Translations under genes and position numbers: made by a program
Shown: piece after piece, positions 1 to 3,429 of the stretch
Numbering within the stretch: the stretch's first letter is position 1
Layout: every line of letters starts with the position of its first letter
The notes under the pieces: model-generated
Told to the model about the DNA's origin: nothing
The model's input: the letters and a program-made list of their open reading frames with translations, nothing else
The model's database searches: none
Source of the DNA: an uncultured Tolumonas sp.
Lineage (GTDB): Bacteria; Pseudomonadota; Gammaproteobacteria; Enterobacterales; Aeromonadaceae
Direction of reading: 5' to 3'
NCBI RefSeq assembly: GCF_963678185.1
Contig: NZ_OY782757.1
Span: forward strand, 2,321,501 to 2,385,500
Length of the DNA: 64,000 nt

Positions 1-2134
1 TTAGTTGTGACGCTTGTGCGGTTAACTCGCTTGCCGCCGCTGAACATTGTTCCGAGCTGGCACTGTTCTGATGTGTGATCTCATCAATCTGGCCGATCCC
101 TAAACTGATTTGCTCAATACCGGATGCTTGTTCGCTAGCAGCAGAGGCTATGTCGGCCACCAACGCGGATGCTTCCGCTGCACCGGTGACGATATCGGCC
201 AACGCCGTTGCAGTTTTATCCGCCAACTCCATACCTTTGACGGTACGTTGACTCGACTCGGCAATCAAAGAGGCAGTCCGTTTGGCCGCTTCAGCACTGC
301 GCGCCGCCAGATTACGCACTTCGTCTGCCACCACCGCAAAACCACGGCCATGCTGACCTGCACGCGCGGCTTCAATCGCCGCATTCAACGCCAACAGGTT
401 GGTTTGCGTGGCAATTTCATCAATGGCTTTAATGATGTTGGTGATATCCCGACCGGAACGATCAATTTCCTGCATCGCCACCATCAAATCATCCATTAGC
501 TTGTTACCATCCTGCGCCGATTGTTCCGCTTCCACCGACAGATGATTGGCTCGGTTGGCATTGTCCGCACTTTGCCGTGTCTGTGCTGCAATTTGCGTGA
601 TCGTCGCGCTGATTTCCGTGATTGCAGAGGCTGACTCGGTCGCGCCACTGGCTAAATCCTGACTTAAACCTGAAACCTGATCGGCATTACTACTGATAAG
701 CCCGGCACCACTTTGCAGATCAGAAATCAATCCGTTCAGTGTTTTAACCATGCGCTGTAATGCCAAACCTAACTGGTCACGATCCGAGGCCAGACGCACA
801 TCAACATCCAAATCACCTTGCGAGATGCGTTCCGCCAGATGCACTTGTTCCTGCAAACTATCCGCCATCCGATCTAAGGCGCTGGATAACTGCCCCACCT
901 CATCGACTGATGCATGCGATAACCGTTTGGATAAATCCCCTTCCTGGATGGCTTTGGCTAAATCAGCCGCTTTTCGGATCGGATTAGCAAGCGAACGGGC
1001 CGACAGCCATAATGCCATCATTGCCAAAATGGAAATCACCACACCAACACCGATCTGCCACAGCATGTTATGGGTCGCCAAGACACCGATCTCAGTATTG
1101 AGTTGTTCATTTTCGGCCAGCACTACATCGCGGCTGATTTTGATCATTACGGCCCAAGGTTTTCCAGTCCGGCCTAATTCAATCGGTGAAAACACTTCGA
1201 TCATACCGGTATCCGGGTCGATGCGGGCCAGGCTTTTACCTTCCTGAATGGCTTTAAAGCCCACTTCCCAATCTTTATCCATCACTTTCTTAAAGTGCTG
1301 CCCTATCAAATCCGGGTGTTCACTGTCAGCGACCAGTAAGCCATTATCCGCCACGATGCCGACTTCGCCTTTACCGCCAAACAGCTCTTTATCCACTTTC
1401 TGACTGATTTTTTGTACAAAGTCGAGATCGTAGTCAGCCCCAGCAACCCCGTAAAATTTACCGTCCGCCAAAATCGGCACTGACAACGTTGCCAGCCAGA
1501 CCTGCTTGCCTTGCACTATGTAGGGTAACGGCCCCAGCACACTCTCTTTATGGGTATCGCGTGGCACGATATACCAGCCGCCTTTTAAGACGCCATTCGG
1601 GTGTGTGTCGTTGGTGTCATATTCCACCAACGGTTGCACGGCAATTTTGCCATCCGCGCTGCGGGTCCAATACGGGGTAAACCGGCCAGTCATGGCATTG
1701 TTGCCATTCTGTCCGGTGGTAAAATCCTGATCTTTACCGTCAATGGCGTTGGGTTCCCAGCAAGAGTAGGTACCATTAAAATCCGGATTTTGTTTTAAGA
1801 CATTGAGTAAAACTGCATTTACCTGGTCACGTCCCAGCGCCAGATTGCCACTCTGCTCCGCCGCCATTTTGGAGACAGCAAAAGAGTCTGCCATCGTTCT
1901 GGCCGAATCTAATGCCACATCAAATTGCGCGCGGATCTCACCGGCATAACGACCACCTAGGTTATTCACGGCATCAAGTGCATTTTTCTGGACTAATTCA
2001 CTGCCTCTGGCCCCAATCAATTTTTGAGTGTTAGAGCCGGAATAAACGCTATACCCCACCAACGAGCCTGCGGTAGCTAACAGGCATATACCACCGATTA
2101 AAGCGATTTTTGTCTGAATTGAACGTAATTGCAT
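1..2134 (-). CDS. Methyl-accepting chemotaxis protein (C-terminus cut by window edge)
   Basis: Inner-membrane chemoreceptor that signals to CheA/CheW. The start at 2134 gives a short basic N-terminus (MQLRSIQTK) and a first membrane segment at about residues 9-30. A large periplasmic domain of dCache type follows ([10 protein letters not shown] and [13 protein letters not shown] stretches). The second membrane segment is near residues 355-375, then a HAMP domain. The cytoplasmic signalling tip ([20 protein letters not shown]) lies around residues 570-590. The reading frame is open to base 2 and no stop lies inside the window, so only the last residues are missing. Ligand cannot be told from sequence. 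It stands alone, convergent with nothing here; the csrB RNA lies upstream on the same strand. Confidence 0.93.
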
Positions 2135-2421
2135 AAATCCACCATAGTCTGGCTGTGATGAGGGAGGAGCGGCGTTATTCACACCTAAAAGAAACATCTG
2201 TTATGTAATTATTCCGTTTGCTCATTGAATCTAGTAAATATTCAAATAAAGACAACCTGGCTAATACGGATCTTTGACTGCTATCTATATCTTGAGCGTG
2301 AAATGAGCGCGCCATCAGGTGTGCAAACTCGATTCAGCCAAAGCAAATTCGAAAAAGTGTTAAAAATTGAAAGGTTAATCGAGAATATAATTTCTGGTAG
2401 GTGGGATTTTGCGGAAAGCAG
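2135..2421. other. Intergenic region between the chemoreceptor start and the csrB terminator
   Basis: This A+T-rich stretch holds the upstream region of the chemoreceptor. A weak ribosome site (GGTGGA) lies just before the start at 2134. A 72-codon open frame at 2225-2443 (plus) has no good ribosome site, no recognisable similarity, and runs into the csrB terminator, so I do not call it a gene. No sigma-28 promoter was obvious. Confidence 0.5.
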
Positions 2422-2450
2422 AAAAAATAAAAGGGCGACATAAGTCACCC
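2422..2450 (-). terminator. Rho-independent terminator of csrB
   Basis: On the minus strand the stem GGGTGAC / GTCGCCC (one G-U pair) with a TTAT loop is followed by TTTTATTTTTT. It lies directly after the last GGA hairpins of the RNA. Confidence 0.85.
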
Positions 2451-2893
2451 CTCTGAAAGTCTTGGTTGCCCAAGCCTGCGACGATATGGCATCGTCTTAT
2501 CTCATCCTTGAAGGCCCTTCCCGATCCATCGGGACATCCTTTTAAGCATCCTGCGTAACAAATAATCCTTACTTGTTACTTTCTTCAATCCATGAAGACA
2601 TCCTGATAACCACATCCTGTGGTGCATCCATCTGCCATCCTGGCTTGCCACTCATCCTGAGCAACAATGACTTCATCCTGAAGAATCCTGTGTCATCCTA
2701 ACTGCTACTCATCCTGAGTAACAAGACCTCATCCTGAGGTATCCTTTGTCATCCTGACTGCTACTCATCCTGAGTAACAACACCTCAATCCTGAGGCAAA
2801 TCCGTTTTGTCATCCTGACAAAGCTTCTCAACCTTGAGAAACCGCAGCGCGTCCTGCAGGAGTAATACTAAGGATTTGTCGCTTTCCTACAAG
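2422..2893 (-). ncRNA. csrB: CsrB-family CsrA-sequestering small RNA
   Basis: Read on the minus strand, this stretch contains 23 GGA motifs between 2852 and 2505. At least eleven are the exact CsrA-binding core CAGGATG. Many sit in the loop of a small hairpin whose stem differs from copy to copy, for example ACTCA-GGA-TGAGT, CCTCA-GGA-TGAGG, GTCA-GGA-TGAC and CTTCA-GGA-TGAAG. The stems co-vary while the loop is constant, the signature of CsrB/CsrC RNAs, which bind many CsrA dimers and relieve CsrA repression. A Rho-independent terminator ends it at 2422-2450. Length of about 470 nt is somewhat longer than E. coli CsrB (369 nt). The 5' end is estimated from a predicted promoter and could be off by tens of bases. 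Confidence 0.92.
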
Positions 2894-2930: not shown

Positions 2931-3132
2931 AAAATAATAAAAATCTTATTTATCATGCAGTTAAATTGTAGTGATTCTTATTGGCTGGCATGAAGAAGCG
3001 TCATTGCTCACAATAACTATGGCAAATATCCTACACGCCTGTAAGCCATCGATAAGAATGAGAGAAGAAGGATGGGGTGAAAAATAGCAGAAACCGCCGC
3101 CAGCGGAGAGAAAAATGGCGGCGGAATACTGA
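2931..3132. promoter_or_regulatory. Upstream region of csrB with an imperfect inverted repeat
   Basis: No coding frame is convincing here. At 3030-3045 the arms CCTACA and TGTAAG flank CGCC. TGTAAG and CTTACA are the half-sites of GacA/UvrY boxes, and the site lies about 140 bases upstream of the predicted csrB start, where such activator sites occur. However, the arms are in the opposite order from the standard TGTAAG-N6-CTTACA box, so the assignment is tentative. Confidence 0.3.
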
Positions 3133-3429
3133 TTAACGCACAGAACGTGCGCGCATCTCGAAAATCATCTTTTCAGCTGTGCAGGTAAATTGCAGCGTGG
3201 TATGCAGCACAACACCGTCTGCCACTGTTTGCAGTTCACTGCTGACTTGCACCTCGGCACAGGCCTGTTTCGCCACGTCGATGTAACGCGCCTGACGCGC
3301 CAATGCATCAGCCTCGTCATCACCTTCAACCGGGATCACGACCACATCATCACCTTCGTGAATGATGGTACCGACTTCGGCCAGACAGCCGCAGGCTTCA
3401 CACACTTCTTCTTTATGTTCTACTGCCAT
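3133..3429 (-). CDS. YfcZ/YiiS family (DUF406) small protein
   Basis: A 98-residue cytoplasmic protein resembling E. coli YfcZ, a small family of unknown function. The N-terminus has a cysteine cluster (C10, C13, C15 in EEVCEACGC) followed by an acidic EGDD stretch. The C-terminal TLQFTCTAEKMIFEMRAR matches the YfcZ ending in spacing and character. I chose the start at 3429 because TTAAGGAG lies just upstream of it; the frame extends 18 codons further upstream without a ribosome site. The gene is monocistronic, upstream of csrB on the same strand. Function unknown; the cysteines hint at metal or redox chemistry, but this is inference. Confidence 0.8.
   Translation of the reverse strand: MAVEHKEEVCEACGCLAEVGTIIHEGDDVVVIPVEGDDEADALARQARYIDVAKQACAEVQVSSELQTVADGVVLHTTLQFTCTAEKMIFEMRARSVR

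Follow-up and report, generated by a model that had tools for sequence, protein, structure and literature searches.

A minus-strand element of the window (the whole 64,000-nucleotide stretch of Tolumonas DNA analysed here) carries many GGA motifs between two genes, which raises the question of whether it encodes a CsrA-sequestering RNA and, if it does, what controls this RNA and what sets the number of its CsrA sites.

A CsrB-family RNA in Tolumonas

The element, at approximately 2857-2422 on the minus strand, is almost certainly a CsrB-family regulatory RNA of Tolumonas; CsrB-type RNAs are already known as a kind, and this RNA is an added member. The predicted transcript (2422-2857) is about 436 nt long and contains 24 GGA motifs, its 5′ end being provisional and its 3′ end taken from a terminator. 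A minus-strand search with the Rfam CsrB covariance model (RF00018), which the earlier note had put forward as a check, gave 69.3 bits with an E-value of 3e-18 over 2423-2778 (model positions 1-356), in agreement with that note, though the score is 1.7 bits under the curated cut-off of 71 bits. Because the locus lies below the cut-off by this margin, a default Rfam scan lists nothing: there were no matches in the whole window at the gathering score. At permissive E-values eight were listed in the window, among which CsrB alone was significant and the next best had an E-value of 0.15. The CsrB model also matched all 10 congeners, 9 of them above the cut-off. The locus illustrates how default annotation can miss such RNAs by a small margin.

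Genes for the proteins of the Csr circuit are present in the genome, namely a single csrA (64 aa, PF02599 at 89.6 bits), uvrY (215 aa, 67% identical, with no internal stop) and barA (48% identity over residues 1-915 of 918); BarA-UvrY is thus common to E. coli and Tolumonas. Together with the RF00018 match and the nine congeners above the cut-off, these genes support the CsrB-type reading given in the earlier note. No clear CsrD was found in the genome, where 36 weak matches reached at best 21% identity over residues 147-639; CsrD helps CsrB turnover in E. coli and is not needed for membership of CsrB/RsmB. A literature search of open-licence papers found no report of a Csr RNA in Tolumonas, and neither this RNA nor varying CsrB modules were found described in them.

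The RNA fills in the Csr circuit of Tolumonas. In this circuit the BarA-UvrY phosphorelay would activate transcription through an 18-bp box upstream of the gene, and the untranslated RNA of about 436 nt would display some 24 GGA sites, of which approximately half would sit in the loops of stable hairpins. Such sites would bind CsrA dimers and draw CsrA off its mRNA targets, and this withdrawal may shift the expression of metabolism, motility and biofilm genes, while modular repeats within the RNA would set the number of CsrA sites per molecule.

Transcript ends, GGA motifs and predicted fold

The element is intergenic and, judged from the open reading frames, has no coding frame, with an intrinsic terminator at its predicted end. 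The terminator stem (2429-2454, minus strand) comprises 11 pairs from 2454 to 2429 and leads into a run of T that ends at 2422, which confirms the strong terminator described earlier; the absence of an open frame was likewise borne out, since no minus-strand ORF of at least 60 aa overlaps the span. One plus-strand ORF of 72 aa (2225-2443) overlaps its end. E. coli CsrB (b4408) is likewise untranslated.

At the other end, conservation points to a likely minus-strand promoter at 2865-2893, with a -35-like TTGTAG (2892-2887), a 16-bp spacer and a -10-like TAGTAT (2870-2865); a scan for the strict sigma-70 consensus found no promoter site. The sequence CTTGTAGGA starts at 2893, and its counterpart in E. 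coli, CTTGTAAGA, lies 36 nt before the csrB start by hand count, so that the motif CTTGTARGA at this distance is common to the two genes; the 5′ end of the Tolumonas RNA was placed 36 nt from CTTGTAGGA accordingly, after E. coli csrB (hand count). All 11 Tolumonas csrB loci with the upstream part present have the form TAGTATTA. This spacing, together with the TAGTAT at 2870-2865, suggests that transcription starts near 2857, and therefore the first GGA counted in the earlier note (2887) would fall in the likely promoter and not in the RNA.

The minus strand of 2422-2893 contains 25 GGA, 18 AGGAT and 11 CAGGATG motifs, so the earlier count of 23 GGA was right about their abundance and not about the exact number, which is 25 in this span and 24 in the likely transcript. 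CAGGATG had been described as the form of most of them; its 11 copies are present, at a share nearer half. When the likely transcript was shuffled 2000 times with its dinucleotide composition kept, GGA averaged 14.1 (sd 2.5) against the 24 observed, AGGAT 1.4 against 18, and CAGGATG 0.12 against 11, and no shuffle reached the observed value for any of the three. Along the minus strand of the window, stretches of 438 nt held a mean of 4.5 GGA, and the densest stretch off the locus held 16. For comparison, E. coli CsrB is 369 nt long with 22 GGA and 6 CAGGATG, and E. coli CsrC, counted alike, has 14 GGA in 246 nt.

Folding of the span 2425-2893 gave an energy of -175.2 kcal/mol (z -7.3), and none of 100 shuffles was as stable. 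The description of hairpin loops that all carry GGA was partly upheld: 13 of the 24 GGA motifs, and not all, occupy loops with a closing stem of at least four pairs. In 300 shuffles this number averaged 3.4 (sd 1.8, maximum 10), a difference that partly reflects the smaller number of GGA motifs in the shuffles themselves; the fraction in such loops was 0.54 at GGA and 0.30 at other positions.

A conserved box upstream of the RNA

Upstream of the promoter lies an 18-bp box, TGTAGGATATTTGCCATA (3018-3035, minus strand), located by a genome pattern search and by its spacing, and flanked by the half-site-like GCTTACA and TGTGAG. Judging from its sequence and position, we read it as a candidate UvrY site. 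At up to one mismatch the box has exactly two sites in its own genome, one before csrB and one before a second RNA described below, and a wider pattern returned the same two; the longest sequence that the upstream regions of both RNAs have in common, by eye, is TGTAGGATATNTGCCATA plus a few flanking letters. At up to three mismatches there were 26 sites in the genome compared with 25 for a reversed control, so the weaker sites look like chance.

All 11 Tolumonas csrB loci have 165-166 bp between the box and TAGTATTA. Among eight second-RNA loci, where the distance was taken to a point one base further upstream, seven show 165-166 and one shows 156. The G008 form of the box has two differences. 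Inspection by eye of the 11 csrB loci showed GCTTACA immediately before the box in 9, and every one of them has TGTGAG or TGTAAG immediately after it. Across 41 sampled genomes of the family, the box at up to one mismatch was found at 21 sites in 12 genomes; 20 of these precede a GGA-bearing RNA, one of them cut short, and the remaining site runs into a contig end.

A different regulator acting at the box of this CsrB RNA is the alternative that survives best, and we consider it unlikely. It would fit the right half of the box, which does not match the CTTACA of the TGTAAGN6CTTACA consensus given in the consulted part of one E. coli study (PMC4682653), and the csrB1 gene of Vibrio tasmaniensis, which is independent of VarS/VarA according to the sections seen of PMC6262261. 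It would also fit the failure to find the box, at up to one mismatch, in 29 of the 41 family genomes, including all of the genera g2, g3 and g4. Since the CsrB model matched in all 11 searched genomes of g2, g3 and g4 without the box, this form of the site extends at most to Tolumonas and one further genus. On the other side, the E. coli csrC UvrY site was mapped by ChIP-exo and footprinting (PMC4682653, as far as consulted) and begins at -168, and the box occupies a similar position, approximately -178 to -161 from the predicted start, in a genome that has a uvrY gene. The box itself agrees with the csrC site at 12 of 18 letters, a figure that is unremarkable taken alone, since a chance position in the region before E. 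coli csrB also reaches 12; the congeners G002 and G008 carry TGTAAGACATTTGCCATA, which agrees at 14 of 18 (hand count) and argues against another regulator. We retain the box as a candidate UvrY site.

A separate observation concerns G020:C38 (L045 1500-2600), where two CsrB-like RNAs lie in tandem with boxes 505 bp apart, each with one mismatch. This arrangement may show what an ancestral duplication looked like.

A putative second Csr-like RNA

A CsrB search of the whole 3.95-Mb genome gave a weak second match of 28 bits at G000:C1:2316719-2316953, 4.5 kb to the left of the window. The corresponding putative Csr-like RNA, of about 277 nt with 12 GGA motifs, is intergenic on the minus strand at G000:C1:2316658-2316934 (L056 1066-1342), outside the window and 7.4 kb from csrB, beside a gene that we take to be pspF. 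It has the same upstream box as csrB, its score with Rfam is far below the cut-off, and its terminator, GGGGTGACATGATGTCGCCCC, is close to that of the csrB RNA. Among four second-RNA loci scanned with Rfam, CsrB was matched weakly in two (L056 at 28 bits and L058 at 23.4 bits), and no CsrB match was obtained at E 0.01 in the other two (L048 and L059).

The second RNA is complete in 8 of 11 genomes, and in G003 the box and the -10 are followed by the contig end; it was not found in G006 and G008, whose records may not extend to its site. The GGA count of 12 is not significant by itself, being reached by 157 of 2000 dinucleotide shuffles. In three diverged species (71-73% identity), 10, 8 and 8 of the 12 GGA motifs are retained compared with 44-47% of other triplets, values that are not independent of one another because the three species are mutually related. 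This RNA is harder to recognise than its sibling, and the case for it as a Csr-like RNA rests on the box, the spacing, the terminator and the retention of GGA.

Genomic neighbourhood

Downstream of csrB, an ORF for a methyl-accepting chemotaxis-like protein (1-2197, minus strand; L080 7461-9698) runs off the window; in line with the earlier note, we take it to belong to the chemoreceptor family. Upstream lies a gene for a small protein of 98 aa (3133-3429, minus strand), identified as an ORF and by neighbourhood comparison as a conserved neighbour of csrB, and presumably YfcZ-like. The gene order common to the longer stretches is prolyl-oligopeptidase-like, small YfcZ-like, csrB, in some cases the chemoreceptor, wrbA-like, psp-like and the second RNA, the protein names being our assumption; the G008 stretch gave no wrbA-like match. 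The neighbours differ from those in E. coli, where csrB lies beside syd and yqcC.

The gene next to the RNA had been singled out earlier as a chemoreceptor, which holds in its own genome and is not conserved. In 7 of the 11 genomes the stretch extends as far as the wrbA-like gene; among these seven, the chemoreceptor is beside csrB in four (G000, G001, G002 and G005) and absent in three (G004, G007 and G010), and its absence from these three indicates that it does not belong to the system. The same pattern bears on whether the element could be a 5′ UTR leader that controls the chemoreceptor gene in cis through CsrA, as its position 225 nt upstream of that ORF on the same strand might suggest. 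This possibility is very improbable and was rejected, because a strong terminator intervenes and because G004, G007 and G010 keep the RNA without the chemoreceptor.

A search with the small upstream protein found 13 records, of which the six most similar, at 77-96% identity, all carry the label Tolumonas and the other seven show 32-40% identity. One contig labelled Oscillospiraceae, JAFUBI010000177.1 (L039), encodes a YfcZ-like protein at 38% identity; it may be a mis-binned contig, since the other 12 YfcZ-like records are labelled Tolumonas, Moritella, Aeromonadales or proteobacterium.

Tandem hairpin modules

Within the csrB RNA, Tandem Repeats Finder (TRF) reported a period of 56 with 2.7 copies at 2819-2645, and a parse of the pattern and its pairs resolved this array (2645-2819, minus strand) into three consecutive modules with lengths of 61, 56 and 58 nt (2819-2759, 2758-2703 and 2702-2645). 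Each module is laid out as a hairpin of the GTC-AGGA-GAC type, a linker usually with GGA, a CCTC/CTTC hairpin and a TTACTC/TTGCTC hairpin. These internal 56-nt tandem modules, detected by running the repeat finder on the Tolumonas RNA, may set it apart from E. coli CsrB.

Because of this genuine 56-nt array, the element might be taken for a decayed tandem repeat of the DNA that does nothing as an RNA. This is the least credible reading of all, and it was rejected on the Rfam CsrB match, the fixed spacing of the upstream box, and a non-repeat 3′ part, terminator included, that can be aligned across all 11 genomes.

Among the 11 genomes, the CsrB-family RNA has three modules in seven (G000, G001, G003, G005, G006, G009 and G010), four in three (G002, G004 and G007) and five in one (G008); the G003 RNA is located at the edge of one contig, and the upstream box of this genome was taken from a different one. 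The RNA accordingly ranges from 425 to 532 nt with 23 to 32 GGA motifs, tracking the number of modules. In six diverse genomes, modules are more alike within a genome (mean identity 86.6%) than between genomes (81.4%), and all G008 modules but the last are 97.9% identical. These values suggest copy gain or homogenisation within species; the pattern does not hold everywhere, the within-genome identity being 79.8% in G003 and G004.

The stems had also been said to vary with compensating changes. Such changes are present, and they amount to weak evidence, with two-sided changes in 2 of the 15 base pairs of a module, no more than in shuffles (mean 1.8, with 307 of 500 shuffles reaching 2). Over a set of 30 distinct modules, the share of cells that pair is 94.7%, compared with at most 58.8% in slid controls; for letter shuffles the figure is 93.8%, owing to the low variation of the columns. 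Counted by cell, there were 8 two-sided changes compared with 4.3 in shuffles, 4 of 500 of which reached 8. Two-sided changes were also seen outside the repeats, in the 3′ part, where they affect 5 of the 64 pairs predicted, among 11 sequences, several of which are nearly identical.

A tentative proposal, which we regard as possible and somewhat more doubtful than probable, is that the sponge capacity of Tolumonas evolves like a tandem repeat, through gain and loss of a module of about 56 nt (3, 4 or 5 copies in the 11 genomes), beside a fast-diverging sibling RNA, and that the control exerted by UvrY may be confined to this pair of RNAs genome-wide. The range of module copy numbers and the box with exactly two sites merit further attention, and the natural series of three, four and five modules would make it possible to measure how site number affects CsrA titration.

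Comparison with Csr RNAs of other bacteria

A similar arrangement is that of CsrB1 and CsrB2 in Shewanella oneidensis. As described in the consulted part of PMC3171408, this species and Tolumonas each have two Csr RNAs close together, one of them of about 420-450 nt. The S. oneidensis pair has UvrY boxes upstream and its dependence on UvrY was shown, whereas the Tolumonas box is a candidate; a transposase gene separates the two RNAs in S. oneidensis, while chemoreceptor, wrbA-like and psp-like genes do so in Tolumonas, and the second Tolumonas RNA is much more diverged than the S. oneidensis pair.

In Vibrio, sibling sponge RNAs (CsrB, CsrC and CsrD, and CsrB1-4 of V. tasmaniensis) occur in several copies by duplication, as here, in the portion seen of PMC6262261; there whole genes multiply, whereas in Tolumonas the number of hairpin modules within the gene also differs (3-5 copies). 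The Pf1-Pf3 RNAs of Pseudoalteromonas fuliginea, with 25, 21 and 9 GGA motifs, likewise include siblings with fewer motifs and a conserved upstream sequence (PMC11882849, as far as consulted); they belong to another genus, and no varying internal module was seen in the part of that paper examined.

Multiple CsrB matches were also seen elsewhere in our sample. In G033:C1:4533806-4536939 (part of L010), from another family of the same order, five CsrB matches lie in a row about 700 bp apart. One genome has six CsrB matches, several of them overlapping, at G025:C1:595028-595758 and 68227-70096 (part of L011), and the overlapping matches are perhaps one long or repeated sponge RNA.
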